From: Paenibacillus sp. FSL R7-0273
GTDB lineage: Bacteria; Bacillota; Bacilli; Paenibacillales; Paenibacillaceae
Assembly: GCF_000758625.1 (NCBI RefSeq)
Contig: NZ_CP009283.1
Span: 6,317,501-6,381,500, forward strand
DNA length: 64,000 bases
Reading direction: 5' to 3'
Shown: piece by piece, positions 38,537 to 64,000 of the stretch
Numbering within the stretch: position 1 is the first letter of the stretch
How the letters are laid out: every line of letters begins with the position of its first letter
Translations under genes and position numbers: made by a program
The notes under the pieces: generated by a model
What the model saw: the letters and a program-made list of their open reading frames with translations, nothing else
What the model was told of the DNA's origin: nothing
Databases searched by the model: none

Positions 38537-40162
38537 TTACGCTTCTACAGGATACATGCGCTGGCGCAGTTCCTTAATTTCCGGATTCTCCAGGTATTCA
38601 TCGTAGCTCATGGAGCGGTCAATGACGCCTGTCGGTGTAATCTCAATAATCCGGTTGGCAATGGTCTGGATGAACTGATGGTCATGGGAAGTAAAGAGAA
38701 TCGTCCCGTCAAAATCAATCAGTCCATTATTCAGCGCAGTGATCGATTCCAGATCCAAGTGGTTCGTAGGCTCATCGAATACGAGCACGTTAGCGCCGTT
38801 CAGCATCATTTTGGCCAGCATACAGCGGACCTTCTCTCCCCCGGACAGCACGCTCGCCTTCTTCAGCGCCTCCTCACCGGCAAACAGCATCCGGCCCAGG
38901 AACCCGCGCAGGAAGGTTTCGTCCTGATCCTTGGAGTACTGGCGCAGCCATTCCACAAGGTTCAGATTGACACCATCGAAATAGCTGGAGTTGTCTTTAG
39001 GGAAATAAGCCTGGGTTGTGGTTACGCCCCATGAGAACTCACCGCTGTCGGCTTCCTTTTCGCCCATCAGAATATCAAACAGCAGGGACTTTGGCTGGGA
39101 ATGCGGACCTACAAAAGCAATCTTGTCGCCTTTGTTTACTACAATACTGAATTCATCCAGCATCTTCTCGCCTTCAACCGTCTTGCTCAGACCAGTGACT
39201 GTAAGCAGCTGCTTACCGGCTTCACGCTCCGGCTTGAAGTTGAGGAACGGATATTTACGGTTGGAAGGACGGATGTCGTCCAGTGTAATCTTCTCGAGCT
39301 GCTTCTTACGGGAAGTCGCCTGCTTGGATTTGGAAGCATTGGCCGAGAAGCGCTGAATGAAGGCCTGCAGCTCCTTGATCTTATCTTCCTTCTTCTTGTT
39401 GGCATCACGCTGCAGGGTCTGGGCCAGCTGGCTGGACTCATACCAGAAATCATAGTTGCCGACGTACATCTGGATTTTGCCGAAATCGATATCCGCAATA
39501 TGCGTGCAGACCTTGTTCAGGAAGTGACGGTCATGGGATACCACGATAACAGTACCTTCATAATCCATCAGGAAGTTCTCCAGCCAGCCGATGGATTCAA
39601 GATCCAAGTGGTTGGTAGGCTCATCCAGCAGCAGGTTGTTCGGACGGCCGAACAGAGCTTGAGCAAGCAATACCCGGACCTTTTCGTTGCCGCTGAGTTC
39701 GGCCATCTTCTTGTCATGCATTTCACGCATAATGCCCAGGCCGATCAGCATCGCTGCTGCATCCGGCTCGGCGTCCCAGCCGTTCAGCTCGGCAAATTCG
39801 CCTTCAAGCTCACCTGCGCGCAGGCCGTCAGCTTCCGTGAAGTCACTCTTGGCGTACAGGGCATCCTTTTCCTTCATAATTTCATAAAGGCGGGTGTGAC
39901 CCATAATTACCGTTTCCAGCACCTGAAATTCATCATACTCGAAATGGTTCTGCTTCAGGATTGCCAGACGTTCGCCCGGAGTGATGTGTACATCCCCGAT
40001 ATTGGCTTCAATCTCGCCGGACAGGATTTTTAGAAAAGTAGATTTACCGGCACCGTTCGCCCCGATCAGGCCGTAGCAGTTTCCTGGTGTGAATTTTATG
40101 TTTACGTCTTCAAAAAGTGCGCGTTTTCCGTAGCGGAGTGTTACGCCGCTTGTGCTAATCAT
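38537..40162 (-). CDS. ABC-F family ATPase (YkpA/YbiT group)
   Basis: 541 residues, two ABC domains and no membrane helices. Domain 1: Walker A GANGAGKST, signature LSGNEKVRVLLAQ, Walker B LLLDEPTNHLD. A charged linker (KKKEDKIKELQAFIQRFSANASKSKQATSRKKQ) follows. Domain 2: Walker A-like GPHSQPKSL, signature LSGGEKVRCMLA, DEPTNHLD. ABC-F proteins act on the ribosome (EttA-like translation control or antibiotic protection). The second Walker A lacks the usual glycines. Start ATG with AAAAGGATGG upstream. Confidence 0.88.
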   Translation of the reverse strand: MISTSGVTLRYGKRALFEDVNIKFTPGNCYGLIGANGAGKSTFLKILSGEIEANIGDVHITPGERLAILKQNHFEYDEFQVLETVIMGHTRLYEIMKEKDALYAKSDFTEADGLRAGELEGEFAELNGWDAEPDAAAMLIGLGIMREMHDKKMAELSGNEKVRVLLAQALFGRPNNLLLDEPTNHLDLESIGWLENFLMDYEGTVIVVSHDRHFLNKVCTHIADIDFGKIQMYVGNYDFWYESSQLAQTLQRDANKKKEDKIKELQAFIQRFSANASKSKQATSRKKQLEKITLDDIRPSNRKYPFLNFKPEREAGKQLLTVTGLSKTVEGEKMLDEFSIVVNKGDKIAFVGPHSQPKSLLFDILMGEKEADSGEFSWGVTTTQAYFPKDNSSYFDGVNLNLVEWLRQYSKDQDETFLRGFLGRMLFAGEEALKKASVLSGGEKVRCMLAKMMLNGANVLVFDEPTNHLDLESITALNNGLIDFDGTILFTSHDHQFIQTIANRIIEITPTGVIDRSMSYDEYLENPEIKELRQRMYPVEA

Positions 40163-41599: not shown

Positions 41600-42280
41600 T
41601 TATGATAAAAATTCCTCGATCAACAGCCGCACATCAATAATCTCGATCTTCTCGCAGGTGTTTGTACCGGCAGTACATGCATAAAGCGAGTACCCTGAAT
41701 CCAGAGAAACGCCCGTCAAATTCCATATCACGCCGTCCATCTCAATGTGCGGAGTAAGCTTATAATCCGAGACAACGCTAAAAGTATCAAGCCCCTGAGA
41801 TAACCCTCTTCCAACCGCTTTAATCAAGCTTTCCTTAGCTGACCAGACCTGATAAAAACGTTCAAGCTGTGATTCCTCATCATCTTGCTCTCTAATGTAT
41901 CTGTCTTCATCCTTTGCAAAAAAACGGCGTGCCAACTCAAGATCGACGGTTCCTTTTTTCTCGATATCGATACCTACCGGCTCCTTGGAGACTGCACAGA
42001 CCACCCAATCTCCGGAGTGTGAAATATTAAACTCCAGACCACCCTCGCACAAGAACGGCTTTCCGTATGCATTCCTTGCAAACCTAAGATTAAAATAAGG
42101 AATATTCAATGCTTGTGATATTACTTTTCTAACAAGCAAATCACCCAGCAACCCTCTTATCCGGTCTTTTTCTTGCTGTAATCTGGATAGTCTCTCCCTT
42201 TTTTCCGCCACACAGTTTAACAAGGGTTCCATAAGAAAGCCCGGGAACTCCGTAATAGATACAGCATAAAGCTCGGCCAT
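41600..42280 (-). CDS. Sfp-type 4'-phosphopantetheinyl transferase
   Basis: 226 residues. Motifs in order: GKPFLCEGGLEFNISHSGDWVVCAV, VGIDIEKKG with the metal-binding Asp and Glu, and FYQVWSAKESLIKAVGRGLS. It loads the phosphopantetheine arm onto the carrier domains of the cluster. It is the last gene of the cluster; GAAAGGAG lies upstream. The gap to the carrier protein gene is 38 bases. Confidence 0.93.
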   Translation of the reverse strand: MAELYAVSITEFPGFLMEPLLNCVAEKRERLSRLQQEKDRIRGLLGDLLVRKVISQALNIPYFNLRFARNAYGKPFLCEGGLEFNISHSGDWVVCAVSKEPVGIDIEKKGTVDLELARRFFAKDEDRYIREQDDEESQLERFYQVWSAKESLIKAVGRGLSQGLDTFSVVSDYKLTPHIEMDGVIWNLTGVSLDSGYSLYACTAGTNTCEKIEIIDVRLLIEEFLS

Positions 42281-42318
42281 TCCCCTCTCCTTTCAATAGT
42301 TAATCATATATCAGCTAA

Positions 42319-42609
42319 TTAATCCTGCGTGTTATAAGCGTTTTGTGCAATGAACTCAGCAATTTGTTTAAAACTGTTGTTTGTCAGTATATACAGATCT
42401 TCTTTCAGCATCACGTTAAACTTTTTTTCAATATTAACAATAAGGACGATGAAATCAAGGGAGTTAATATAATTGGATAATTCCAGATCCTCTTCCAGAC
42501 TGGCCAGCGGTCCAGTTTCACTCGTTCCGCCCGTTTCTTCGGCTTTCTGCAAAAGATAAGCATTAATGAGTTCAAGCAATTCCCGGTTAATCGTATCCAT
42601 TGAAATCAT
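42319..42609 (-). CDS. Free-standing acyl carrier protein
   Basis: 96 residues, acidic helical bundle (TINRELLELINAYLLQKAEETGG). The phosphopantetheine site is Ser50 in YINSLDFIVLIVNIEKKF; the usual Asp before this Ser is Asn. AAAGGAG lies before the ATG. It follows the BtrH-like gene by 53 bases and precedes the phosphopantetheinyl transferase. By analogy to butirosin biosynthesis, where carrier protein BtrI supplies the acyl group to BtrH, I infer that it hands an acyl chain to the neighbouring acyltransferase. Confidence 0.8.
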   Translation of the reverse strand: MISMDTINRELLELINAYLLQKAEETGGTSETGPLASLEEDLELSNYINSLDFIVLIVNIEKKFNVMLKEDLYILTNNSFKQIAEFIAQNAYNTQD

Positions 42610-42662
42610 AGCAGACGCTCCTTTGTGTTGGCTTGGATAGGTAATAACACTATGTCAAACGC

Positions 42663-43655
42663 TCACTTCTTCACTAGGAAGTTTTCGTAGAACTGTAATT
42701 CAGCATCGTAGATTTTGTTGATCCGATCCGGCAATTCGCTAAATTGTTCAGCATTAAACTGACTGGAATACACATACTTCGCCATAACCGCTCTAATTAT
42801 GCTCCATTCATTAGTAATACTGTGCAGCATGGCACCTGAAGGCTCCTGCTCCATCTCCAAAAGCCTAAGCTTATAGAGTTCCGCTTGCTTTGCCAATATG
42901 AGTGAATTCAGCTTATCCAGCTGCTTTGCAGCATAATCAACAGATAAGTGTGCATGCTGTATTAACCTTCCATATAAGAGCTCCGAAAATTCCAGCAGAT
43001 GGTCCAGGCCTTCTGTAATTCCATTCATATTCGCCTTAATGAGTTCCTGGTATATTTCAGCTTCACCGGATATCCTTGGAACAGCGTGATTCAACTTATA
43101 AAATTCATAATAGGAATCCAGCTTCATTTGTCCTTGATTAAATTCATGATCAAACCCAAAATATGCCCGCTCCAAATCTTCCATTTTGATTGTTTTTTTA
43201 TCGTAGGACAGGTTTTCCATCTGCAGCTGTTCAATAATATGAAAATGGCCGGTAGAATCATCATAGCCATGAACTAAGATGGTGTGCGGCAAATGCTTCT
43301 TTCGAAAAGTATCTTTGCGGAGCGGCAATTCGTAACAATCAACCCACAGTATAACAGGTCTCTCCATGTCTACTGCACTCTTGATTTTGTTAACAACGGT
43401 CCCGACCAGCCGTTCCCTCTCAACTCCGACTCCAAGTTCTGCAAGAGCTTCAAAAAGGCCCTTATTGGTCCTGTGAGAGATTCCGCAGAGCATTTCTTCC
43501 CCTGTCCGGGTCGCCTCATACACAGCCCAGTCGTTAGTCAATAACGGTAATATACTAAGCTGAAAATGCCGTATAACCGGGAACAATGAATTATAGAAGC
43601 AGCTTTGATAATATATTTCATTAAAGGGTTCTATCGGTTCAATGATTGTTTGCAT
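42663..43655 (-). CDS. BtrH-like acyltransferase
   Basis: 330 residues. The N-terminal domain resembles the BtrH_N family, a papain/C39-like fold: Cys19 in YYQSCFYNSLF, then GISHRTNKGLFEALAELGVGV, VILWVDCYELPLRKDTF and LPHTILVHGYDDSTGHFHIIEQ with the likely His. The C-terminal 130 residues are helical. BtrH moves an acyl group from a carrier protein to an amino group of ribostamycin. Here it sits between the PKS and the carrier protein in a cluster with no thioesterase, so a chain-releasing amide-forming role is my inference. GGGGATAAG lies before the ATG. Confidence 0.7.
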   Translation of the reverse strand: MQTIIEPIEPFNEIYYQSCFYNSLFPVIRHFQLSILPLLTNDWAVYEATRTGEEMLCGISHRTNKGLFEALAELGVGVERERLVGTVVNKIKSAVDMERPVILWVDCYELPLRKDTFRKKHLPHTILVHGYDDSTGHFHIIEQLQMENLSYDKKTIKMEDLERAYFGFDHEFNQGQMKLDSYYEFYKLNHAVPRISGEAEIYQELIKANMNGITEGLDHLLEFSELLYGRLIQHAHLSVDYAAKQLDKLNSLILAKQAELYKLRLLEMEQEPSGAMLHSITNEWSIIRAVMAKYVYSSQFNAEQFSELPDRINKIYDAELQFYENFLVKK

Positions 43656-43686
43656 CTCTTATCCCCGCTTTCATTGAAGCATGCCT

Positions 43687-46600
43687 TCAGTCCCCAACCT
43701 TATCATTCGAATTTTCCAGAGCTCTCGCTATATTCTCAAGCGTCCGGTCCCGTTCAATATTTAAATGATCTGCCACCACGCCATACTTTTCTAACTCAAC
43801 CTCCACCCGGATTAGGAGTAAGGAGTGACCCCCTAAGTCATAAAAACTGTCGTCTACCCTAATCACATCACGTTCAAACAGTTCGCCCCATATGCGTGCC
43901 AACCGTTTCTCAATTTCTGTATACTCACCGGATTCTCTTCCAGCTAATTGTACGTCCATGAAGGGTTCCTGCACGCTTATCATGTCTTGTACCGTTGGTT
44001 GATTCACATCTGCAGGGTTGATTTCACCCAGGACAATTCTTGGTGAATCCGCCTTTAGAATATCATCAAGCGCAATCAACGCCGAACCGGGCGAAATATG
44101 GCTGACCATGCTGATACTTTCCCTGCCATCGCGATCAACAGCCATCTCCCCCTCTTTCCAGGCCGGCCAATTGATAGAACAAGCCGTCATACCTAAGCTG
44201 AACCGGTAAGAAGCGAAGGCATCCATAAACCGGCTGGCAGCCGTTTGTACCCCTTGAGCTACCCCTCCAGTCAAGGAAGCGACCGACGAACACAGCACAA
44301 AAAAGTCCAGGTCATTGTCTTTCGTCAGCAAGTGTAAGTTCCATGTCCCCGTTACTTTAGGAGAAAGAACCGCGTCAATTTGCTCTTGGCTTCTCCTGAA
44401 CAGCATACCGTCTCCCGCTGTGCCTGCTGCATGAAAAATACCGTTTATATTTCCGAGACTGCCTCTAATCTGCCGGATCAGCAAGTTCATTTGATTATAA
44501 TCAGAAACGTCTGCGCTGTAAGAATGTATGGAGGATCCCAGGCTCTCCATTTCTTCTATACTCTCAATGATGCGTTTATGTTTTGGATTCTCTCCCGCTT
44601 TAATCTTTTCGCGGTCAGGCAGTGGTGTCCTGCTTACAAGTGCAATGGTGATTTTCTGTTGTCTTGCCCAATATTTGGCTACTTCTAAACCGATATCCCC
44701 ATGTCCTCCAGTAATGATATAGACGCCGTTGCTGCGAAAGGAAACTGCTTCTGTTCTTTCAAAATCAACTGCCTGAAAGCTTTCTAAATAGGTAACACCG
44801 TTTCGGAAAGCATATTCTGTCGTTTCCCTGATTGGAGAGACGATGTGATCAAGTGCAGAACGCTCAAGGGTTCCGTCCAAATCAAAGCTGCGGATGTACA
44901 GGTACGGATGCTCTTGGTGCATAACCTTTGCCAGTCCGAGCATAGCGGCGCCGGTCGGATGAATCTGTTTCTCGTCTCCTGTCACGGCATTTGCAAACCG
45001 GGTAAGCACGGTAATCACTGCTTCTTGTCTTCGCTGTTTCTTAAATAATGCTTTCGTTAAAGAAGCCAAGCTATGCACGCTACGAATGAGATGTTGCTGC
45101 AGCTCCAATGTAGAGTGCGGAATCCGCTCCTCGAGATCAAAGGCATGGATGACATGTCCAACCTTCCCTATTTGTTCAAGCAGCAAGTGGTAGTCAGAAT
45201 CATCGCCCGAAATCACAAATTCAGCATCAGAAACCTTCTTGAACTCGGGCCCATAATAAACTTCAATATACTCCCGGTTTTGTCTTTTCAGTAAGGTACG
45301 GATCTGGCCGCAATCCGGAGCTGTTGTCCGAAAAAAAACAGTCTGCCCGCCAATGGGCTCCGGCAGCTTGTCATGAATCCTGCGGGGCACCCATTTCGGC
45401 TGATAATAACAAATCTCTGCTTTAGGCACGATTGTTAAAGTCTCATCTCTCTCAATAGACTGTGTATGCTTCTCCGGAATGCTGAACCAGCATCTGCTTT
45501 TCGAATAGCTGTAGGTCGGCAAACTGACCTTGCTGTAAGATCGTTTCGGGTATAACCCTTTCCAATTCATTTCTGCTCCTTGAGTATAAGCCATTGCAAA
45601 ATCATGGAACACTCTGCTCATATCGGACGGATCTTGGCTAATATTGAACAGCAGCTCTTTCACGTGCTTGAAGGTGGAAGCGGATATACTTTCAGCATTC
45701 GGCCCGGTAGTTCTGTTGGGGCTGATGTTATGTTTGCCGTAATAAATATGATGCTCTTCCATCGTAACAAATGGAGTATTAACGAATCGTTCCAATTGCA
45801 GAAGCAGTTCTTCTATGCTGCATGCCTTCAGCACCAGGCGGTGAGGGTAGTGGCCTCTCCCTGTATTAACGGTGTAGCAAACATCCCCGAGTCTATACCT
45901 GCTGACAGAGCTGGAAAGGAAACGTATATATCTTTGCACAATATCTAACAGGTTCGTCTGTTCCATAGCAGATAAGGTGAAAATATGATGCAAATGGTCC
46001 TCGGAAGTCTCCGTTCGTTCAGGTGCCTCCTCTAATACAACATGACAATTCGTTCCGCTTATACCGAATGCACTTACACCGCATCTTCTTACCGTACCTG
46101 GTGAACGCTCCCACTGGATTAACCGGTCCGCCACATAAACTGGTGAGTCTTTAAAGGATATATTAGGATTAGGTTTTTTAAAATGCAGCATCGGCGGAAT
46201 TTTTTGATGCTCTAACGAGAGCACTGCTTTAATAAAACCCGCAATTCCCGCTGCATGATCCAAATGGCCAATATTTGTTTTGACAGAACCGATTGCGCAA
46301 AATTGCAGCTTCGGGGTATGCTTGCGGAATGCATTATGTAATCCTTGGATTTCGATGGGATCTCCCAGCTTTGTTGCCGTGCTATTGGCCTCCAGATATG
46401 AAATAGATTCAGGATGGATTCCCGCATCCTTCCATGCTCTTAGAATGACCCGCTCCTGCGCAGCCGGATTCGGTGCTGTTAGTCCTAAGGAACTCCCATC
46501 CTGATTCCATGCGCTGCCCTTCACGACTGCATAAATATGATCATGGTCTAACACCGCTTGATGCAGTGGTTTCAGCAGAACAGCCGCGACTCCCTCTCCA

Positions 46601-47388
46601 AAATTTGTTCCATCCGAATCTGCATCAAATGCCCGCGTATACCCGTCTGATGATTCAATTCCCATTTTATAGTCATTCGACTGGCTAGCCGGTAACATAT
46701 TAATCTTGACGCTTCCAGCTATGGCAGTATTGCATTCGCCTGTGTGAATGGAGCGGCATGCCAGATGAAGTGCAGACAAGGATGAAGAGCATGCAGTATC
46801 CACTACACTGCTGGGGCCTTTAAAATCAAATGTATAGGAAATCCTGCCTGCAATAACCGAATTTGAATTGCCTGAATTTATAATATCCACAAGCTCCGGC
46901 GCGGACATTTGAGCGAATGTTTTGTATTCAATTGCCCCACCGCTTGATAGTCCGACGAATACACCAGTTTCGCTGCCAATCAGTTCCCTCCCCCCGTATC
47001 CTGCATCCTCCATAGTGGCGTAGACAGTCTCCAGAAAAAGCCGTTGATGCGGATCCATTAACTGAGCTTCAATAGCGGTTAGAGAAAAAAATTTATAATC
47101 GAACGTATCGATATTTCCAAGATATGTAGCTTTCTTAAATTCCTGATGAGTGATGCCTCTTTGCTTTAGTGCGTCTGTAATATCTTTTTTGCGGGTTTGC
47201 GGCAGTTCTTCAATCAGCGTTTTCCCTTCAACCATACAATTCCAGAATTCATTCGTATTTTTGGCGCTACCAATCTGACACGACATACCAATCACTGCAA
47301 TATCCTTACTTGAAATTTGTTCAAACTTGATATTCTCGTTCGTTAGCAGCACTTCGGAAGCATCGAAATTGACCAGTCTTTTTTTCAC
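43687..47388 (-). CDS. AT-less PKS module KS-KR-ACP with inactive KS and KR
   Basis: 1233 residues. KS (about 28-455): active Cys200 in VVDTACSSSLSAL and His375 in TNIGHLDHAAG, but the HGTGT motif reads ANSTAT with Asn335 in place of the catalytic His. A KS-linker follows (to about 640), with no acyltransferase GHSxG. KR (about 660-1120): NADPH loop ITGGHGDIGLEV, Lys1011 and Ser1034/1035 present, but Gln1048 replaces the catalytic Tyr. ACP: Ser1189 in YDLGGHSLLLIRV. So both enzymatic domains look silent and only acyl transfer seems possible. GTG start with GGAGGG six bases upstream. AT-rich compared with the NRPS. Confidence 0.92.
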   Translation of the reverse strand: MKKRLVNFDASEVLLTNENIKFEQISSKDIAVIGMSCQIGSAKNTNEFWNCMVEGKTLIEELPQTRKKDITDALKQRGITHQEFKKATYLGNIDTFDYKFFSLTAIEAQLMDPHQRLFLETVYATMEDAGYGGRELIGSETGVFVGLSSGGAIEYKTFAQMSAPELVDIINSGNSNSVIAGRISYTFDFKGPSSVVDTACSSSLSALHLACRSIHTGECNTAIAGSVKINMLPASQSNDYKMGIESSDGYTRAFDADSDGTNFGEGVAAVLLKPLHQAVLDHDHIYAVVKGSAWNQDGSSLGLTAPNPAAQERVILRAWKDAGIHPESISYLEANSTATKLGDPIEIQGLHNAFRKHTPKLQFCAIGSVKTNIGHLDHAAGIAGFIKAVLSLEHQKIPPMLHFKKPNPNISFKDSPVYVADRLIQWERSPGTVRRCGVSAFGISGTNCHVVLEEAPERTETSEDHLHHIFTLSAMEQTNLLDIVQRYIRFLSSSVSRYRLGDVCYTVNTGRGHYPHRLVLKACSIEELLLQLERFVNTPFVTMEEHHIYYGKHNISPNRTTGPNAESISASTFKHVKELLFNISQDPSDMSRVFHDFAMAYTQGAEMNWKGLYPKRSYSKVSLPTYSYSKSRCWFSIPEKHTQSIERDETLTIVPKAEICYYQPKWVPRRIHDKLPEPIGGQTVFFRTTAPDCGQIRTLLKRQNREYIEVYYGPEFKKVSDAEFVISGDDSDYHLLLEQIGKVGHVIHAFDLEERIPHSTLELQQHLIRSVHSLASLTKALFKKQRRQEAVITVLTRFANAVTGDEKQIHPTGAAMLGLAKVMHQEHPYLYIRSFDLDGTLERSALDHIVSPIRETTEYAFRNGVTYLESFQAVDFERTEAVSFRSNGVYIITGGHGDIGLEVAKYWARQQKITIALVSRTPLPDREKIKAGENPKHKRIIESIEEMESLGSSIHSYSADVSDYNQMNLLIRQIRGSLGNINGIFHAAGTAGDGMLFRRSQEQIDAVLSPKVTGTWNLHLLTKDNDLDFFVLCSSVASLTGGVAQGVQTAASRFMDAFASYRFSLGMTACSINWPAWKEGEMAVDRDGRESISMVSHISPGSALIALDDILKADSPRIVLGEINPADVNQPTVQDMISVQEPFMDVQLAGRESGEYTEIEKRLARIWGELFERDVIRVDDSFYDLGGHSLLLIRVEVELEKYGVVADHLNIERDRTLENIARALENSNDKVGD

Positions 47389-47491: not shown

Positions 47492-50400
47492 CTATAGCAG
47501 ACCGGTTTTTTTCTCACATTCTTCAAGTATTTTATCCAATAGACCTACAAACTGGCGAAGCAGCCTCTCTACAGATGCTTGTAAAATCCTGCCCTGATTA
47601 TACTCACATGTCATAAATAGGACACGACCCTCTTCTCCACAGTTGAGCACGAGATCGAACTGTTCGGCAAAGCCCGCTGGTAATGGAACAGCGTCTGTAA
47701 ATGCACAAAGAATTTGGCCTTCTTGCGGCTGATAAGCAGTGTACCTCACCTGATCCCAGTGAAAACGTTCCTCTGTTTGCAGGTAACCGTCTACTGCTGC
47801 AAAAACTTCCTCCAGCTCTTCGGCTTCCTGGAACGAAACCTCAACCTGGCACAAAACGTTTCCTTCTAACAAACAAGGCAAAGTAACAACTTCTGTCTTT
47901 GCGTATTCTGACATCAAATATGCAAAAGCAGTCATCAGTACAGACACTTTTTGAATGCTGTAGTGAGTTGAAATACATTCTAAGCTTTGAATTACTCGTT
48001 CAGGGAATTCAAAGCGCAATACATTGCCCGGAATGTAGTCTCCTTGCCCGACCATACCTGTCGTTGGAAATACGAGGGGCTTCCATGTAAATGCTTGTTT
48101 TGGCGCATAAACCGTTTCGATATACTGGGCCAATTGACGCACATTCGGTTTTCCGAACAAATCCGCTACAACTAGTACATCCGGATACTTTTGCTGTAAT
48201 CTGGCGTATACTTCCACAATCCTCAGTGAGTTTCCACCAACATGGAAGAAGTTATCCTTAACCCCAATGTCGTTATTGTGAAGAACCGCTTGCCATACCT
48301 TCAGAATATCCGACTCAATCTCCGTAGCAGGCGGCAGTTTGTCTTCTTGAGTATTCATGGACAACGCTGGAACAGGCAGAAGCTTTCGATTCACTTTGCC
48401 GTTATTACTCAGCGGAATGCTGTCCAGCTCAACGAAATAGGACGGAATCATATAGTCCGGTAAATATCTAGACAGGTGATCATGTAGCTGGTCTACTGTC
48501 ACCGGCTTGATGCATACCAGATATGCGCATAGATACGCCTGTCCCTGCTCATCCTCGCGGGCCAGCACGACTGCTTCGCGAATGTACGCATGCGCCAGAA
48601 GCTGCGCCTCAATCTCCCCGCACTCGATCCGGTAACCCCGGATCTTCACCTGATGATCCATCCGGCCCAAGTACTCCAGGCTGCCGTCCGCCAGCCGTCT
48701 CGCCAGATCACCGGTCCGGTACATCCGAGTCCCCGGCTCAAACGGGTTATCCACAAATTTCTCCGCCGTCAGCTCCGGCCGGTTGTAGTACCCGCGTGCC
48801 AAGCCGTCTCCTGCTATGCACAGTTCACCCGCAACGCCTACCGGCTGCAGCTGACAGTCGCCATTCACAATATACATCCGCGTATTGGCCATCGGCCCCC
48901 CGACAGTCACCATTTGCTCGGTAGTGACTTCCCGCACCGCAGACCAAATGGTTGTCTCAGTCGGACCGTACATATTGAACAAAGACGCCCTCGATTTGCT
49001 TTGCAGCTCCGTCAGCAGCTCACCCGTCCAGGCCTCTCCACCGATCAGGATTTCGGTTACCCCTTCCAGCCACGCCTCGCAGCCCGCCAACAACAGCATC
49101 TTCACCCGCGACGGCGTCATCTGCACCATGCCGATGCGCTCACGTTCAATCAGCTCTGCCAGCTGCTGAGGATCCTTTTGCTGCTCTTTGCTCGCTGCAA
49201 CCACCCGCATGCCTTGAGTCAACGCCAGCAGCGTCTCCACCACCGAAATGTCGAACGACAGTGTGGTCGCAAATAATATTGTCTTCTCTGGGGCAAAAGG
49301 AACCACCTGCGTCATCCCGGTGATGAAGTTAACCACCGAGCGGTGTTCTATCATGACTCCTTTGGGGTTTCCGGTCGTGCCTGAAGTGTAGATCATATAC
49401 GCCAAATCGCCCGGCATTGCGTGAAGTGCGGGATTCTCCCCGGCCGGGGCATGCCCGGCTTCCGCCAGATCCAGCACTATGCCCTTAAATCCGCCTGCAT
49501 CAAGGCCAGGCCCCATCAGCAGCACTGCCGCGCCGCTGTCGCTGAGCATATACTGTATGCGTTCAGCCGACAGCGCCGGATCAATCGGCAGGTACGCCCC
49601 GCCGGCCTTCAGAATGCCGAGCATTCCGAATATCAGCTCCAGCGAGGGTTCTGCCATAATTGCCACGATGCGGTCCGGCCCCACGCCGTGACCGCGCAGC
49701 GTCCAGGCCAGCTGATTCGCGCGCGCGTTCAGCTCCGCATAGCTCAGCCGCTGATCCAAGTACACGGCCGCCACCGCGTCCGGCGTCTTCTCCGCCTGTG
49801 CTTCAAACAGCCCTTGGATCGTCGCTTCCTGCGGATACACTACCACCGTGTCATTGAATCCGTGCAGCAGTTGCTCCTTCTCTTCCGACATAACAAGCTC
49901 ATACACGCCGATGCTTGCTTCCGGCTGCTCCGCCAGTTGGGATAAGAGCTGCACAAAGTGCATAAGGTACCGTTCAGCCGTCTCCACGCTGAATAATGCA
50001 CGGCTATATTCCAGCGTCAGGTGCAGGCTTTGATGGGCTTCCATGGCGTTCAGCGTTAAGTCTAATTTCTCCGCCGGGTTGTTCAGCTCGACTGCACGAA
50101 CGTCAATATCCGTCAGCCCAAAGCGGGCCTGCTCCATGTTATGCAGTACCAGCATCGTGTCAAACAGCGGGTTGCGGCTTAGATCGCGCCGCACGTCGAG
50201 CTTCTCCACCAGTTCCTCGAACGGATAATCCTGATGCTCGAACGCTGCCAGCGTCCGTTCCTTCACTTCGCGCACGAAATCGATAAACCGCTTCTCCCCG
50301 GACGGGGCATTGCGCAGCGCCAGCGTGTTCAGGAACATCCCGATCACGGGCTCCGTATCCCCATGTGTCCGGCCCGACACCGGCGTCCCCACCACAATGT

Positions 50401-53400
50401 CGCTCTGCCCCGTATACTTGTGCAGCCACACGTTATACGCTGCCAGCAGCACCATGTACAGTGTTGCTCCCGTCTCTGCTGCGATCTTTTTTAGGGCATC
50501 TAACATCTTGGCGTTTACTTCGGTGTGTATCCGGCCGCCTTCGCTGCCTGGCACCACCGGACGCAGCCGGTCGGCCGGCAGCTCCAGCACTGGCGCCTCT
50601 TCCGCATAAGCCGATAGCCAGTACGCCTCATGCGCTTGCATCCGCTCCATTTCGAGCGTGCCCTGCTGCCATACCGCGTAGTCTTTGTACTGGATCCGCA
50701 GCGGCGCCAGCTCCTCACCGGCATACATCGCCATGAAGTCCGACACCAGAATATTCATCGACACACCGTCTGACACGATATGATGCATGTCCCACACCAG
50801 CCAGTAGCGTTCCGCCGCCAGCCGCAGAAGTTTAATGCGCAGCAGCGGTGCCTCATCCAATGCGAACGGCCGTACGAAATTCCGGATGAACTCCTGTGCC
50901 TGCGATTCTTCCACATCGCGGCATGCCCATTCAAACGCTATGTCTTCGTGTATCTCCTGTCTCGGTTCGCCGTCAGCCCACGTGAACGATGTACGCAGCG
51001 ACTCATGACGGGCGATGACCGAACGGATAGCCTGTTCCAGCCGTTCCGTATCCACCGACCCCGTGAGTTCCATGACCCCCGGCATGTTGTAGCGCGTGCT
51101 CTCCGGCTCCATCTCATGCAGCACATATAGCCGCCGCTGCGACGAAGACAGCGGGTACGAGGCCCGCGCTGCAACCGGCTCGATCCGGCCGTAGCCGCTT
51201 TCCTCCGCGCTGCGCACATAGGCCGCCAGCGCCTTCACTGTCGGACGCGCAAACAGCTCCCGCAGCGGCAGCTCGACGCCCAGCTGCTGATGAATCTGCG
51301 ATACCAGCGTCACCGCTTTCAGCGAGTGGCCGCCGCGCTCGAAGAACGAATCGCTGATCCCGACCTCATTGACCCCGAGCACCACCGCGAACAACTCTGA
51401 TAATTGTATCTCCAGCGCATCCCGCGGTGCTTCGTAGCCTTCGGTGTACGCTTCCCGGTCCGGCGCTGGAAGTTCCTTGCGGTCTACCTTGCCGTTAGTA
51501 TTCAGCGGCAGCTGCTCCAGCTCCACAAAGTAAGACGGGATCATGTAATCCGGCAGCTGTCCTGCTAAGTGCGAGCGCAGCTCCGGTGCCTTAGCCGCCT
51601 TATCGCTCACTACATATGCGCATAAATACGCTTGTCCCTGCTCATCCTTCCGGCCGATGACTACCGCTTCGCGGATAGACGTATGCGCCAGAAGCCGCGC
51701 CTCGATCTCTCCGCACTCAATCCGGTAGCCCCGGATCTTCACTTGCTGGTCGATCCGCCCCAGATACTCCAGATTCCCGTCCGCCAGCCTTCTCGCCAAA
51801 TCCCCGGTCCGGTACATCCGCGTTCCCGGTTCAAACGGATTGGCTACGAATTTCTCCGCCGTCAGTTCCGGACGGTTGAGGTATCCTCTAGCCAGCCCTT
51901 CCCCTCCGATATACATTTCTCCGGGAACGCCCGTGGCTACCGGACGCCGGCTTCCATCCAGCACATAGACTTTTGCATTATCTGCCGGTATGCCGATAGG
52001 AACCGCATGCATGCCTCCTTGGGACTCGTCATAGCGGTAAATCATGCAGCCGACCGTGGTTTCCGTTGGCCCGTATTCATTATAGATTTCAACGGGAAAA
52101 GCACAGCGGCTGGCAAATTTCCTTGCCACATGAGCTTCGAGCTGCTCCCCTCCCACGATAATCCGCTTCAGATTCGAACCGGCAGCCGGGATTTCGCCCA
52201 GCAGACTCAAATGCGTCGGGGTGAGCTTCACAATCCCGACTTGATTTTCAGTCAGCATCCGCTCCAGCACCAGGACGATGTCTTGGCCGGAATAGATGAC
52301 AACCCGATTGCCGCTCACAAGCGGAGTAAACATAGAAGTGACCGTGAGGTCGAAAGCAACCGACGAATACAGCGGGAAATCCAGCGGGTCTCCCTGTACA
52401 TACACCTTGCACGCCCAACTGATATAGTTAACCAGGTTCTGCTGGGTAATCACGACTCCTTTGGGCTGACCCGTCGATCCGGACGTGTAGATGACATACG
52501 CCATATTCTCCGGTCCACTGACTACCGGTACGTTCTCCGGATCCCCTGCATGCTGCGCCGTGTTCAGGGTTAACACTTCTCCCGCATAGGCTGCTGGTAC
52601 TTGCGTGTCTCCGGAGATGAGCAGCAGACCGGCTCCGCTGTCTTCCAACATGTAAGCAATCCGCTCTGCCGGATACGCCGGATCGATCGGCACGTACGCC
52701 CCGCCAGCTTTTAGGATGCCGAGCACCCCGATCATCAGCTCCAGCGAGCGTTCCGCCATAATCGCCACGGTACGCTCGGGCCCCACGCCGTGACCGCGCA
52801 GCGTCCAGGCCAGCTGATTTGCCCGCGCGTTCAGCTCCGCATAGCTCAGCTGCTGATCCCCTTGTACAACCGCTATCGCATCCGGCGTCTTCTCCGCCTG
52901 TGCTTCGAACAGCCCGTGGATCGTCGCTTCCCGCGGATACGCTGCCGATGTGTCGTTGAACCCGTACAGCAGTTGTTCCTTCTCTTCTGCCGTTACAAGC
53001 GATATTGAGGCCGCTGTCCGCTGAGCATCCTCCAGCAGCTGCCGTGCGATCTCCCGGATATGCCCCTCCATTCGCCGGATGAACATCCCATCGTATACCT
53101 TGGCATTGTACCGGAATTCAATCGACATCGTTTCGCCCGGGGCTAGCACGACGGTGAGGTCATAGTTGGTCTGCTCGTATATTTCGATATCCCGGATTCT
53201 AAACACTGCCTCGTCTGTACCGCCAGCTTGGCCAATCGCTTCGGCGATCGGATAGTTCTCGAACACCAAAATGTGGTCAATAAGGCCCTGCTTAAGCGCG
53301 CTGAGCCCTTGGATTTCATACAGCGGGTAATGGCTGTGTGCTTCCGATGCCAACGCCGCATCCTGTACCTGCTGCAGCAGTGCCGTTACACTCTGACCGG

Positions 53401-56400
53401 GAGAACTGCTGACCCGTACAGGCGTCGTATTGATAAACAGGCCGATCATCCGCTCAATCCCCGGCACCTCCGCCGGTCTTCCCGATACAACCGCTCCAAA
53501 TACCACATCGTCTCTTTGGTTGTATTTCTGCAGCAGAAGTCCCCAGATCGTCTGCATCACTGTATTCAGCGTCACCTGTGCCTGGCGGGCCAGCTGCTCC
53601 AGCCCCCGGGTCAGCTCCCGCTCCAGTCGGAAGCCATGCTCCTCCGGCTTGGCTTCCCCATGTCCTGCTTTCCAAACCGCTTGAGGTACACTCGCCTGCT
53701 GCTCATAGTTCGCCAAGTATCCGCTCCAGTACTGAAGCGCCGCTTCCCGGTCCTGCTTGTTCAACCATTGCACATACCGGCTAAAGGGCTCCACAGGCCT
53801 TAGCTCCACCGGCTGCTTCGTCTTTATCCCCCGATAAATGGTCATGAGCTCCTGCATAAGAATACTTGTGCACCAGCCGTCCATGAGGATGTGATGAAAG
53901 CTCCAGATGACATGCCGCCTTCCGTCCTTCCCGACCACGACCGTGACGCGCATCAGTGCATCCCGGCTTAGGTCAAAGCCTCTTTTCCGGTCTTCCTGTT
54001 TGATCTTCTCCAGATCTGTTGCCTGATGCCTGACCTGCAGATCTGCTTGCCGTTCCTGCAGCACCAGCTGCACTGGCCGTCTCACCTGCGCGCTTACGAA
54101 TACCGTCCGCAGCATTTCGTGCCTTTGCGTTAAGCATTCCAAGCTTTTCTCGAACACCGCAACATCCAGCGTGCCTTCCAGCAGGAGCGTAAACTGCTCG
54201 AAATACATAGTGGACTCCGGATCCAGCTGGGCGTGAAACAGCATGCCTTCCTGCACTGGTGTCAGCGGATAGATGTCTTGCACCTTGTAGCCGTAAGCTT
54301 CCTGCAAGCTTCTCGCTTCCTTCGGCTCCACATCCGCCAAACGGAAGTCACTCGCGGTCTTCTCCCTATGCGCCTGCCCGGTGCAGTGGGCAATCAGCCT
54401 GCGAAGCTGCTCTGCATAACGCGCCATCCAGCGTTCCACCGTTGCCCTCCGGTAAGTATCCGCCGCATAGTTACACGTAAACATAAGCTTCCCGCCGCTC
54501 ACCATCCCGTTCAGACTCAGCTTGTACTCACTCTGAAGGTTCCGATCCATGCTGCTGCCTGTCCCGTACTCCGACGCTTCGAATACGCCACCGGTCACGT
54601 CCTGATCGAACTGGCCCAGATAATTGAAGCAGATCTCCGGGCGAAGGTCGAACTTCAGCTCCCCCTTGTGCTCCGCTGCCGTCATATACTTCAGCACGCC
54701 ATACCCCAGACCTTTGTTCGGTACGCTGCGCAGCCCTTCTTTCACTGTTTTGATACAGTCGGACAACGCCTCGGATGCCCCCAGGTCAAGCAGCGTCGGC
54801 ACGACCGCCGTGAACCAGCCGACCGTACGGCTCACATCCACCGCTTCCCCGATCTCTTCACGGCCATGCCCTTCCAGGTCCACTACAAATTGCCGCCCGC
54901 CGCTCCATTCCCGCAGCACCAGCCCTAGCCCCGTCAGCAGGATGTCGTTGATTTCCGTATGGTACGCCCGGCCCGCCTGGTTCAGAAGCTGATCCGTCTC
55001 TTCCTGCGACAGCTCAATGGTCACCGCTCCGCCGCTCCGGTCGGATTCTCCCGGTCTTTCCTCCTCCGGCAGCACCCCAGCCGGCGTCTGCTCGATTTGT
55101 TTCCAATAGGCGATTTCACCCAGCTGTTCCTTACTGTCCGCATAGCGCGCTAGTGCTTCCGACCACGTCCGGAACGCATCCGTCTTCTCCGGGAAGCGGA
55201 TCTCCCCGCCCCGCTCTGCCTGCTCATAACCCGTCTGCACATCTTCGAACAGAATCCGCCATGACACCCCGTCCATCACCAGATGGTGGATGACGATCAG
55301 CAGATGATCGCCCTCACCGGTCTTCATCAGCCCCAGGCGCAGCAGCGGTCCCTGCTCCAGGTGCAGCCCCCGCTGCAGGCGCTCAGCTTCCGCCGCGATC
55401 CGCGTCTCCACGTCAGGTTCAGCGTGCAAGTCGATGACGTCCAGGCTAAAGCCCGCCTCTGCCAGCCCGCCGTTCCACTGCACGATGCCCTCCGCTTCTT
55501 TCCGGTACCTCATCCGCAGCGCATCATGGTGCGACACGATCCCCTCAAATACACGGCCCAGGATGGCTTCGTCAAATCCGTCCCGCCGATACAGCATCAC
55601 CGCCTGGTTATAATGGTGCGGCAGCTGCGCCGACCGTTCAAACAGTCCCTGCTGGATTGGCGTTAACCGCACTTCACCTTCTACTGGCCCTTGATCGGTC
55701 TGACGTGTCAGCGTCTGTACATGCGGGCTTAGCTCCAGGACCGTCGGATACCGGAACAGATCCCGGATCGCCAGGTGCAGCTGATGTCCCCGCAGCCGCG
55801 CAGCTATCTGAACGGCTTTGATCGAATCCCCGCCCAGCTCAAAGAAGGAATCTTTGATTCCCAGCCGCTTTACGCCCAGAACCTCCTGCCAAACCGATGC
55901 CAACAAGGCTTCCCGCGCTGTCCGCGGTGCTTCGTAAACCCTACTTGTATGCGCTGCTTCCGGCTCCGGCAACGCCTTGCGGTCCACCTTGCCGTTGGTG
56001 TTGAGTGGTATGGATTCCAACTCAACAAAATAGGACGGGATCATATAATCCGGCAGCTGTCCTGCTAAGTGCGAACGCAGCTCCGGTGCCATAGCCGCCT
56101 TATCGCTCACTACATATGCGCATAAGTACGCCTGTCCCTGCTCATCCTTCCGGCCGATGACTACCGCTTCGCGGATAGACGTATGCGCCAGAAGCCGCGC
56201 CTCGATCTCCCCGCACTCGATCCGGTAGCCCCGAATCTTCACCTGATGGTCGATCCGGCCCAGGTATTCCAGATTGCCGTCCGGCAGCCATCTCGCCAAA
56301 TCTCCGGTCCGGTACATCCGTGTCTCCGGCTCAAACGGGTTATCCACGAATTTCTCCGCCGTCAGCTCCGGATTGTTCAAGTACCCCCGTGCCAAGCCGT

Positions 56401-59400
56401 CCCCTGCAATACACAGTTCACCCGCGACGCCTACCGGCTGCAGCTGATAGGCGCTATTGACAATGTACAGCTGCGTGTTGGCGATTGGCTTGCCAATCGG
56501 CACAGCCGTCTCTGCGAACGTCGAAGCACTGTCGTAATACGTGACATCCACCGTAGCCTCCGTTGGTCCGTACAGGTTGTGAAGCGTCGCTCCGCTACCC
56601 TGCATGACCTTATAGAACCCAGTCACGTGCTGCGGCTTCAATGCTTCCCCGCTGGCAAATACCCGGCGCAAGCTGCCCAGCTGCTCCCTGCCAATACCTT
56701 GCCCCGCCTGCTCCAGAAACACGCTCAGCATCGACGGCACAAAGTGCATTACCGTGACGCCGTGACGCCCAATCGTTTCGGCCAGCACCTCCGGATCCTT
56801 CTCTCCCTGCGGCGCAAGCATGCAGACCCGGGCTCCCGTCATGCCCCACCAGAACAGCTCCCACACCGAAACGTCGAACGTAATCGGCGTCTTCTGCAGA
56901 AGGACATCCTGTGCTCCGATCGGGTAGCGGTTCTGCATCCACTCCAGGCGGTTAATAACCGCCCGGTGTTCAATCATGACCCCCTTGGGGTTGCCTGTTG
57001 TCCCTGAGGTGTAGATTACATACGCCAGCCCCCGGGAATCCATCTCTAGCGGCGGATTGGCTTCAGATTGCGCTTGCCCCCCAGGTGTTAACTCGACTAC
57101 CGTGCCCTCAAATCCGCATGCATCCAGCCCAGGCTGTATCAGCAGCGTCGCCGCGCCGCTGTCGCTGAGCATATAGCGGATGCGCTCTGCAGGCAGCGCC
57201 GGATCGATCGGCAGGTACGCCCCGCCGGCCTTCAGGATGCCATAGAGTCCTATCATCAGCTCTAGCGAGCGTTCCGCCATAACCGCAACGATACGCTCCG
57301 GCCCCACGCCGTGACCGCGCAGCATCCACGCCAGCTGATTCGCCTGCGCATTCAGCTCCGCGTAGGTCAGCTGCTGATCCCCATACACAACCGCTACCGC
57401 ATCCGGCGTCTTCTCCGCCTGCGCTTCGAACAGTCCGTGCAGTGTCTTCTCTGCTGCATATGGCATATCCGTCCGATTCTTTTCATACACGATCTCTTGC
57501 CGTTCCCCAGCCGTCATCAGCTGCTCTATCGACAAGAGATCAGTCTCCTCAACACACAGAGCCTCAAGGATTCGTTCGTACCAAACGAACGCTCTTTCGA
57601 TCTCCCGGTCATCCCAATAAGCCGGAGCATATTTGATTTTCATGCTCAGTTCCTGAGGGGATTGCGAGACCTCCAGATCAAACCATGTATTTGTCATTTC
57701 GCTTGCTTCCAAGTTCAGTGACGCTGTCTCCGATGCCATTTCTTGCCCCGGCTGCATCTCCTCCAGCACATGGAAATCATTGTAGTTAAACATCGTGTCA
57801 AAGATTGGGTTGACCCCCGGACCTGACACTTCGCCGATCGCATCCGTGATATCGGCCAGAAACAGTTCGTGCACCTTCATTTGTGCAAGCTGCTGTTTCG
57901 TCCGATTCACCAGTTCTGATTTTGACACTTGACCTGTGACTCCCATGCGAAGCGGTACCGTATTCAGGAAGCAACCCAGTACTTTCTCTCCATCCTCGAG
58001 TGCCGGCCGGTCATGGCTGACTACGCCTGTGACAATCTCTTCCTCCGTCGTCAGGATGCCCAGCAAATACACGTGCGCGCTCAAGCACAGCTCCTTGACC
58101 GTACACCCATACCGCTTCGCCTGCCGCTCCAAGGATTCAAGCAGTGTGCTGCTCAGTTGCCCGCGGTATATTTTGCTGGCCGCCACGCCGTCCCTCTTCT
58201 TGCCCGCGTAGTTGAACGGCAGCTTGTTCCGGGTATACCCCGCCAGTTCCCTGATCCAATATTGCCGGCTCTCCTCGTCGCTCTCCCTCAGCCGGTTGAT
58301 GGCTACATAATCCTTGTAGCTGCTTTGCAGCGGCTTTACCTCCGCCGGCGTTCCCTGGAGCAGCCGCTGATAGATATCCATGGCCTCCTGCTGGAAGGAT
58401 GCCACGCTCCATCCATCCAGAATCGCATGGTGGAACGTAAACACCAAGCAATAATCATTGTGTGTGTTCAGCCGGAACAAGCGCACCCGCCACAGCACTT
58501 CTCCGTCGAACCGGAACACATTCTGTTTATCTTGTTCGATACGCGCCCGGATGGCATGTTCCTGCTCCTCCCGCCGAAGGGAGGAAACATCCTCCGCCGA
58601 AAGATTAGGCACGATCCGGGGATGCACGATCTGGACCTCTTCCTCAAAATGCGTGAGATCGAAGGTGGTGCGCAGAATCGGATGCTTATCGGTTAACTGC
58701 TGCAGCGCTTCGGCAAACCGGTCCGCCGACACGATCTTGAAATGGTACAAAAACTGATCGTGGTAAATCGGCTCCTCCGGCCGCAGTCTCGAGTAGAACA
58801 CCATGCTCTGCTGAATTTTACTCAGCGGATACACATCCTCGTAATCCTCCGGCAGATGCTTCGCCTGGTCCGGATCCTCCGTGATGCGCTGCTTCATCTG
58901 CTCCAGCATCTCCCGCCCCAACTCCAGCTGCCGGTTCGGCTTATGCTCCTGCACTAGAAGCCCGGCCAGCTCGCCGATGGTCTGATGCAGGTACAGCTCT
59001 TTTAACGGAAGAGTAACGTCCAGGTCACGGTTGATCCGGCTGACCAGGCGGATCGCCTTGATCGAGTCGCCGCCCAGCACAAAGAAGTTATCATGGATGC
59101 CGACCTGCTCCGCTCCCAGCACGTCCTGCAAAATCTCCGCCAGCTTCAGCTGCGCCGGCGTGCTTGGCGCTTCGTAGACGCTGCCGGTATGCGCCGCTTC
59201 CGGCACCGGCAGCGCCCTGCGGTCTACCTTGCCGTTGGTGTTCAGCGGAATGGATTCCAATTCAACAAAATAGGACGGGATCATATAGTCCGGCAGCTGT
59301 TCCGCCAAATAGGAGCGCAGCTCCGGTACTGGAACAATCTCGCCGCTCACGAGATACGCGCACAGGTACGCCTGCCCTTGCTCATCCTCACGGGCCAGCA

Positions 59401-62400: not shown

Positions 62401-64000
62401 TGCCCGGTGCTTCGTAGACGCTGCCGGTATGTGCCGCTTCCGGCACCGGCAGCGCCCTGCGGTCCACCTTGCCGTTAGTGTTCAGCGGAATTCCCTCCAG
62501 CTCCACAAAATAGGACGGGATCATATAGTCCGGCAGCTGTTCCGCCAAGTGTGCACGCAGTTCTGTTACCGGAACGGCTTTCTCGCTCACAAGATACGCA
62601 CACAGATACGCCTGTCCCTGCCCATCCTCACGGGCCAGCACGACTGCCTCTCGGATAGACGCATGCGCCAGAAGCCGCGCCTCGATCTCCCCGCACTCGA
62701 TCCGGTAGCCACGGATCTTCACCTGGTGGTCGATCCGGCCCAGGTATTCCAGATTGCCGTCCGGCAGCCATCTCGCCAAATCTCCGGTCCGGTACATCCG
62801 CGTTCCCGGTTCGAACGGATTGGCTACGAATTTCTCCGCCGTCAGCTCCGGATTGTTCAAGTACCCCCGCGCTAGGCCGTCGCCTGCTATGCACAGTTCA
62901 CCCGCGACACCCACCGGCTGCAATTGCCGGTTCTCATTCACAATGTACAGCTGCGTATTGGCAATGGGCTTGCCAATCGGCACAGCCGTCTCTGCGAACG
63001 TCAAAGCACTGTCGTAATACGTGACATCCACCGTAGCCTCCGTTGGTCCGTACAGGTTGTGAAGCGTCGCTTCCCTTCCCTCCATGACCTTGTAGAACCC
63101 GGTCACGTGCTGCGGCTTCAATGCTTCCCCGCTGGCAAATACCCGGCGCAAGCTGCCCAACTGCTCCCTGCCAATACCTTGCCCCGCCTGCTCCAGAAAC
63201 ACGTTCAGTATCGACGGCACAAAGTGCATTACCGTGACACCGTGTCGCTCAATTGATTCGGCCAGCACCTCCGGATCCTTCTCTCCCTGCGGCGCAAGCA
63301 TGCAGACCCGGGCTCCGGTCATCCCCCACCAGAACAGCTCCCACACCGAAACGTCGAACGTAATCGGCGTCTTCTGCAGAAGGACATCCTGTGCTCCGAT
63401 CGGGTAGCGGTTCTGCATCCACTCCAAGCGGTTAATAACCGCCCGGTGTTCAATCATGACCCCCTTGGGATTCCCAGTCGTGCCCGAGGTGTAGATTACA
63501 TACGCCAGTCCCCGGGAATCCATCTCTAGCGGCGGATTGGCCTCGGATTGCGCCTGCCCCCCAGGTGTTAACTCGACTACCGTGCCCTCAAATCCGCATG
63601 CATCCAGCCCAGGCTGTATCAGCAGTGTCGCCGCGCCGCTGTCGCTGAGCATATAGCGGATACGTTCTGCAGGCAGCGCCGGATCGATCGGCAGGTACGC
63701 CCCGCCGGCCTTCAGGATGCCATAGAGTCCTATCATCAGCTCTAGCGAGCGTTCCGCCATTATCGCCACGACATGATCCGGCCCCACGCCGTGACCGCGC
63801 AGCATCCACGCCAGCTGATTCGCCTGCGCGTTCAGCTCCGCATAGGTCAGCTGCTGATCCCCATACACAACCGCCACTGCATCCGGCGTCTTCTCCGCCT
63901 GCGCTTCGAACAGTCCGTGCAGTGTCTTCTCTGCTGCGTATGGCATATCCGTCCGATTCTTTTCATACACGATCTCTTGCCGTTCCCCAGCCGTCATCAG
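47492..64000 (-). CDS. Giant non-ribosomal peptide synthetase (5' end beyond window)
   Basis: At least 5502 residues; the frame is open to the window edge. Counting residues from the Met at 63997: A1-T1 (Ser565), C2 (HHAILDG 776), A2-T2 (Ser1645), C3 (1856), A3-T3 (Ser2725), epimerase E3 (HHLVMDG 2904, EGHGREE), C4 (HHILMDG 3368), A4-T4 (Ser4225), C5 (HHIVSDG 4405), A5-T5 (Ser5257), then a 200-residue piece like the second half of a C domain. Reading the specificity pocket residues: A1-A3 DVWHFSLVD (Ser), A4 DLTKIGEVG (Asn), A5 DIVQLGMIW (Gly). Product segment: Ser-Ser-D-Ser-Asn-Gly. No thioesterase. Confidence 0.95.
57518..60757 (-). repeat. tandem NRPS module unit 2 (A-T-C), 3240 bp
   Basis: Second copy of the 1080-residue A-T-C unit. 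A third, partial copy (the A3 domain) continues from 57517 to about 55960, where the sequence diverges into a T domain and epimerase. Confidence 0.9.
60758..63997 (-). repeat. tandem NRPS module unit 1 (A-T-C), 3240 bp
   Basis: From [12 protein letters not shown] of the first A domain to SIEQL before the second. It repeats in frame and at near identity in the next unit; the C parts differ at only about seven residues. Confidence 0.9.

Follow-up and report, generated by a model that had tools for sequence, protein, structure and literature searches.

A BtrH-type cysteine transferase may take the place of the thioesterase in a lipopeptide-type NRPS of 14 modules from Paenibacillus sp. FSL R7-0273

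The window, a stretch of 64,000 nucleotides from Paenibacillus sp. FSL R7-0273 (genome of 7.29 Mb in one contig), seems to contain the off-loading end of a lipopeptide-type nonribosomal peptide synthetase (NRPS) of 14 modules, at which a BtrH-type cysteine transferase replaces the thioesterase (TE). We give this reading a probability of roughly 0.58. Off-loading by BtrH is well supported by position: in relatives from the same order, BtrH domains are found at the end of NRPS and polyketide synthase (PKS) proteins. A route by which antibiotic-like peptides are released may thus have been overlooked. The gene content, the states of key residues, their conservation, the terminal position of BtrH in these relatives, and the secondary loss of the extension machinery are observations.

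Five genes lie in a row on the minus strand, in the order that the first-pass annotation had read: the last synthetase (NRPS3), a KS-KR-ACP protein, a BtrH-like protein, a lone acyl carrier protein (ACP), and a phosphopantetheinyl transferase (PPTase). The intergenic gaps from NRPS3 to the PPTase are 103, 31, 53, and 38 bp, which is operon-like. NRPS3 occupies positions 47492–64000 of the window and runs past its edge. It is followed by an AT-less PKS module KS-KR-ACP of 1233 aa (43687–47388; ketoacyl-synt 230, KR 177, and PP-binding 31 bits), the BtrH-type acyltransferase of 330 aa (42663–43655), the discrete ACP of 96 aa (42319–42609), and an Sfp-type 4'-phosphopantetheinyl transferase of 226 aa (41600–42280; PF01648 (ACPS) 65 bits, PF22624 60 bits). 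The PP-binding score of the lone ACP, 19.7 bits, is approximately 1 bit under the Pfam cut-off of 20.8, and an NCBIfam search with this protein gave no family. Its Ser50, in the motif NSLDF (42460–42462), is kept in all three clusters compared, namely those of the window and two orthologs (type IV clusters). The discrete ACP follows BtrH at a spacing of 24–80 bp in all three. The PPTase does not adjoin the ACP in either of the two orthologous clusters inspected. An ATP-binding protein that resembles ABC-F proteins by eye adjoins the cluster at 38537–40162 of the window.

The complete line consists of 14 A-domain modules on three proteins. NRPS1 (79023–99374 in extended coordinates; 6783 aa) begins with a starter-type C domain and ends with an E domain. 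NRPS2 (74351–78871, extended; 1506 aa) has the layout C-A-T-C. NRPS3, at its full extent (47492–71092, extended; 7866 aa; start MDSLTVRL behind GGAGG), has a partial C domain and then seven A-T modules, including one E domain. The A-domain codes were taken by motif mapping. With what we take to be the canonical codes, the predicted residues are Thr-Gly-Thr-Cys?-Ser-Asn / Ser-like / Ser5-Asn-Gly; the A domains of NRPS3 would presumably account for five Ser, Asn, and Gly. On the same assumption, the peptide would be rich in Ser and Thr and would contain no Lys, Orn, Dab, or other amine side chain.

Five C domains of NRPS1 and NRPS3 (after Thr1, Thr3, Ser9, Ser10, and Ser11) are of one type with two C domains in the orthologous cluster of genome G056 (after Thr). 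Where the CmodAA helix signature described in PMC11342130 would lie, six of these seven have K-x6-H and one has K-x6-Y; the pattern was found in none of the 20 other C and E domains. The K-x6-H domains would predict dehydro-residues close to a Cys module.

The last synthetase does not end in a TE domain, as judged by Pfam on NRPS3 and by a genome-wide PF00975 search. The sole PF00975 match in the genome at E ≤ 1e-10 lies in a 236-aa frame and represents a stand-alone type II TE, encoded at the 5' end of the cluster (99480–100178, extended); G056 also has a type II TE at the 5' end of its cluster. The PF07993 reductase was not found in NRPS3; the best three of its four matches in the genome lie in frames of 345–352 aa, none of them NRPS-sized. 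The first-pass annotation had stated that the NRPS ends without a TE or reductase. This holds for the NRPS line itself and fails for the flank, which contains the stand-alone enzyme. As to the amine-supplying gene for which that annotation had also pointed to the upstream flank, none was recognised among the annotated ORFs. A hidden TE or reductase in this flank was rejected, since just the stand-alone type II TE was found there among the matches listed.

The C-terminal tail of NRPS3 after its last carrier domain (47492–48118, approximately 200 aa) gives a partial match to PF00668. Positions 388–440 of 456 are matched at the very end of the tail with 25.8 bits and E 5.6e-6, below the cut-off of 30.6. 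In the tail of the ortholog L034, positions 388–443 are matched (E 6.2e-6), also below the cut-off. A complete C domain after the last carrier is absent, and the last part of the profile is matched alone. The tail is possibly a docking piece towards the KS. Pieces of C domains are found at subunit ends elsewhere, too: besides the C-terminal remnant before the KS in the window, many BtrH-carrying proteins in the loci L093–L110 have the latter half of a C domain at their start and come after a protein that ends with C. Such pieces may serve for docking.

The BtrH-like protein matches BtrH_N (PF14399) with 38.7 bits against a Pfam cut-off of 29.7 (40.2 bits in the genome search) and Peptidase_C39_2 (PF13529) with 29.0 bits against a cut-off of 24. 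The PF14399 match spans positions 58–132 of the 134 in the profile and is outside the Cys region. In the alignment, Cys19 (43599–43601), Asp106, His121, His124 (43284–43286), and Glu142 (43230–43232) are identical in 68 of 68 BtrH domains. The Cys/His site that had been expected in this protein is accordingly present as an invariant Cys19 and His124, with Glu142, and these two residues are considered to be the putative catalytic pair. BtrH_N is placed among papain-like enzymes, near C39 and C70, in PMC10318531. PDB sequence searches with BtrH and with its paralog gave no significant relative, and an NCBIfam search with BtrH gave no family. A link to AziU3/Azi29 of azinomycin biosynthesis was dropped; the PDB match (E 0.26–0.27) was not significant.

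The distribution of BtrH was examined with a profile from an alignment of 16 BtrH sequences (A1). It matched 77 of the 295 genomes of the family (E ≤ 1e-10), 52 of 296 genomes in an order sample (E ≤ 1e-30), and 2 of 398 in a phylum sample, the own genome included. The scored set comprised 70 contexts with 68 BtrH domains above 180 bits, near-copies included; left out were L130 and L131 (107–116 bits), approximately two dozen free-standing hits near 1e-30, a fragment (G283), and G324:C2. Domain strings were drawn from small home-made profiles, with a Pfam check on a subset. BtrH is fused into NRPS/PKS proteins longer than 600 aa in 52 of the 68 cases; when near-copies are thinned, this is so in 35 of 48 groups at 70% identity and in 23 of 36 at 50%. 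The fused domain is preceded by a carrier domain (T) in 50 of 52 proteins and by a C hit in two. It is followed by nothing in 51 and by a second BtrH piece in one; no domain of another kind comes after it in any of the 52. The first-pass annotation had proposed a search for BtrH_N proteins next to NRPS clusters, and the search commonly placed them where a thioesterase would be expected, attached behind a carrier domain.

A TE profile built from type II enzymes only gave no hit in the 68 BtrH-bearing proteins. In 23 genomes with fused BtrH, PF00975 matches (E ≤ 1e-6) included, by eye, one frame longer than 600 aa within 60 kb of BtrH, many contigs being shorter than this distance. This frame, of 1295 aa, is in G059, on the other strand and 23 kb from BtrH. 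The architectures found were KS-T-BtrH, KS-KR-T-BtrH, C-A-T-BtrH, KS-AT-KR-T-C-A-T-BtrH, and A-T-BtrH, together with a separate BtrH gene beside a KS as in the window. For some of the 16 free BtrH proteins (e.g., L117, L118, L123, L128, and L129), no NRPS/PKS module gene lies within 20 kb. On the tree, which has many near-copies and long branches, fused forms are interspersed with free ones (8 changes against a shuffled mean of 14.6). The separate gene in the window is therefore no argument for a different role.

It was also considered whether BtrH might be an internal domain that feeds a next module. Nine C-A-T-C genes lie near BtrH loci. In eight of them the first C domain is of the starter type and groups with the starter C of NRPS1 (SH-aLRT 96); in the ninth (L107), an E-like domain comes first. 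The C-A-T-C genes are thus likely to be first modules that lie out of order in the DNA, and the internal role was rejected.

Six contexts (type III: L007, L112, L119, L120, L122, and L124) have A-T-BtrH beside A-like proteins. No C domain was found within the 20 kb fetched around them, so BtrH is the likeliest amide-forming enzyme in these loci. This lends support to an amine acceptor in general.

The KS-KR-ACP protein was described by the first-pass annotation as lacking key catalytic residues, and this was borne out. In the KS, Cys200 (46789–46791) and His375 are kept, and the first, condensing His of HGTGT is replaced by Asn335 (46384–46386; motif EANSTAT). In the KR, Lys1011 and Ser1035 are kept, and the Tyr is replaced by Gln1048 (44245–44247). 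The ACP keeps Ser1189 (43822–43824). No AT domain was found in the protein by Pfam. Judging from these residues, the module is silent for both extension and reduction.

This silence is not part of the basic design of the release end. The condensing His is kept in five of seven full-length orthologs and the KR Tyr in six of seven orthologous proteins. Among the KS rows (n = 69) and the KR rows (n = 50) that were aligned, the one loss of the first His and the one loss of the Tyr are both those of the window. The discrete trans-AT is intact in the G056 cluster and, on another contig, in G092, and has left only relics in the window genome. Most orthologs being active, the idea that release was built around a silent module from the outset was rejected; the extension machinery (AT, KS His, and KR Tyr) has been lost secondarily. 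The His-to-Asn change is common to the window KS and a sister protein (P0027) that is 25% different; the two group with support of 98/98 for the whole protein and 81/84 for KS plus linker. The dN/dS of the KS is 0.131 and 0.118 between the window and two orthologs and 0.088 between those two, which means a somewhat weaker constraint on the window side, over lineages that partly perhaps predate the loss. The KS thus still seems to be under constraint and is probably maintained as a pass-through.

Every chain-transfer step, its direction, and the acceptor are what we infer from these data. The finished peptidyl chain would move from the last carrier of NRPS3 to Cys200 of the non-condensing KS. 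With extension and ketoreduction off, it would pass unchanged to Ser1189 of the PKS ACP, and from there to Cys19 of BtrH. Cys19 would then deliver it to a nucleophile. Since Cys200 and the ACP serines are kept, such a pass-through is chemically possible; of the earlier proposal that the peptide goes via KS Cys200, these residues stand as observed, and the transfer itself would follow from them by inference. BtrH is a separate gene in the window and two orthologs, so the order from ACP to BtrH is drawn from the gene order and from the fused relatives. By analogy with butirosin BtrH, the acceptor might be an amine. Other acceptors could be an intramolecular hydroxyl group (macrolactonisation), water (hydrolysis), or the discrete ACP (handover). 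Points against this route include the following: no amine-supplying gene was recognised, the type II TE could in principle release the chain, the discrete ACP beside BtrH in three of three type IV clusters is left unexplained by simple release, and the silent module is possibly on its way to decay.

The first-pass annotation had proposed transfer to a polyamine or an amino sugar. No amine-supplying gene was recognised among the annotated ORFs, so that acceptor is a guess, and the predicted peptide itself offers no Lys, Orn, or Dab. For this cluster, the amine hypothesis is neither supported nor excluded. It should be mentioned that butirosin BtrH moves an acyl chain from a carrier protein to an amine, and that it is, to our knowledge, the one characterised member of the family.

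The discrete ACP might instead be the destination. BtrH would then be a carrier-to-carrier transacylase that takes the chain off the PKS ACP and loads it onto the discrete one, with release by the type II TE or an enzyme elsewhere. We regard this as unlikely. In the window and both orthologs, BtrH is immediately followed by the ACP. Of the 68 BtrH loci, 24 have a discrete ACP no more than 150 bp away and 43 have one no more than 5 kb away, counts that are descriptive and without a control set. The window genome and G056 each have a type II TE at the 5' end of their cluster, and PMC8748450 reports the movement of aminoacyl chains by a type II TE domain. Against these stand the 25 of 68 loci that have no discrete ACP within 5 kb, with the reservation that weak ACPs may be missed (the home-made ACP profile missed the ACP of L007, which Pfam detected). 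Part of the ACPs counted, moreover, sit among genes that resemble extender-unit supply, and in none of the type IV clusters was an enzyme recognised that would use the discrete ACP once loaded. The same ACP might conversely be an acyl donor, from which BtrH would acylate an amine, either in the product or in a residue bound to a carrier, in tailoring or initiation, and release would occur otherwise. The discrete ACP of L007 lies between an AMP-ligase-like gene and A-T-BtrH, the six type III contexts have no C domain, and the arrangement recalls what we take to be that of BtrI and BtrH in butirosin. In the window, however, no ligase lies beside the ACP, the predicted chain has no free amine, and the NRPS already opens with a starter-type C domain; release would also be left unexplained. 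This role is quite improbable.

The nature of the nucleophile leads to a further alternative, in which BtrH is a macrocyclase or a hydrolase and the Cys19-bound peptide is attacked by a Ser/Thr hydroxyl group of the chain or by water. The predicted peptide has many such hydroxyl groups and no amine side chain, no amine-supplying gene was recognised, and papain-like enzymes commonly hydrolyse. The characterised family member, however, makes amides, and the conservation of Cys19, His124, and Glu142 fits every outcome alike. This, too, seems unlikely. Finally, the cluster end might be decaying in this strain, with no product or a shunt product alone. The relics of the AT, the loss of catalytic residues from both KS and KR, and an insert of 0.37 GC between NRPS2 and NRPS3 are consistent with decay. 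All frames are nevertheless open and the release parts are intact, the dN/dS of the KS is about 0.12–0.13, and the KS change is shared with a protein that is 25% different; decay is the least probable of these alternatives.

Off-loading by BtrH may have a wider meaning. BtrH might form a distinct and widespread class of NRPS/PKS terminators in the Paenibacillus order, in which the chain would go from the last carrier to the papain-like cysteine of BtrH and on to a nucleophile, in the place of the TE. Here it would lie behind a decommissioned conduit module, so that a former ketide-containing product is now a plain peptide. We put this forward tentatively, at slightly less than even odds.

BtrH of the window can be compared with that of butirosin, an ACP:aminoglycoside acyltransferase. 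The window's BtrH matches PF14399, the Pfam family of butirosin BtrH, above the cut-off, and the likeness is drawn via this family. The Cys and His are conserved within the window's clade, and a discrete ACP is a neighbour, as BtrI presumably is in butirosin. The window's BtrH differs in that it follows an NRPS/PKS line, most of the relatives examined being fused to the end of one, and no aminoglycoside genes were recognised among the annotated ORFs, by inspection rather than by profile search. The silent module resembles the KS0 modules of trans-AT PKSs: it has an AT-less KS with Cys kept and the HGTGT His lost, and the ACP serine is kept. It differs in that the loss is limited to a sublineage (five of seven orthologs keep the His), in that it ends an NRPS line, and in that the KR Tyr is lost as well and the trans-AT is reduced to relics. 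KS0 domains act as non-elongating transacylases, according to PMC8456789.

TE, reductase, and terminal C domains have the same task as that proposed for the window's BtrH: the chain must leave the last carrier, perhaps for an amine. None of them was found at the end of the line in the window, and the candidate belongs to BtrH_N/Peptidase_C39_2 by Pfam. In glidonins, putrescine is added by terminal C-domain release (PMC10587159). A 2010 paper (PMC2922099) names BtrH-family proteins near ACPs as possible transacylases. Among the matches listed, no title or abstract described BtrH as an NRPS/PKS release domain, subscription journals being mostly outside the search. A cysteine-protease-like enzyme that makes an amide between carrier-bound partners reportedly exists in the andrimid line: AdmF, a transglutaminase homologue, is said to be a condensation catalyst there. 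It is of another family and not a terminal domain.

The end of an NRPS line is usually recognised in genome mining by a TE, R, or terminal C domain. Should BtrH prove to be another terminator, dozens of clusters that would be taken to lack a release domain would gain a testable release step, and if it forms amides, it would be a useful part for engineering. Of the two orthologous clusters, one has an active module and an AT, the other a silent module and AT relics. The pair thus forms a natural experiment that asks whether BtrH accepts both ketide-extended and plain peptidyl chains.

Other clusters with BtrH were also observed. The type III cluster is small and has two AMP-ligase-like proteins, an acyl-CoA dehydrogenase, and A-T-BtrH; five of the six also encode a HemN-like radical SAM protein. 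The second BtrH of the window genome (L007:3679-14785) is of this type, and for this locus Pfam revealed a discrete ACP and a KAS III-like protein in addition. Another type, a conserved PKS/NRPS cluster (L036, L077–L084, L086, L088, and similar), has A-T, AT, KS-KR-T, KS-T-BtrH, ACP, a radical SAM protein, and a glycosyltransferase; in L036 the radical SAM protein is of the SPASM kind, and a BtrH paralog without the Cys is present. An opposite-strand insert in the present cluster (72362–74266, extended; G000:C1:6389862 onwards; L004:14362-16266) also encodes a BtrH paralog together with a radical SAM protein. The active-site Cys and Glu do not align in this paralog. Its relatives are found in 50 of 100 genus genomes (E ≤ 1e-10), and in G091 one of them lies beside the same kind of radical SAM gene.
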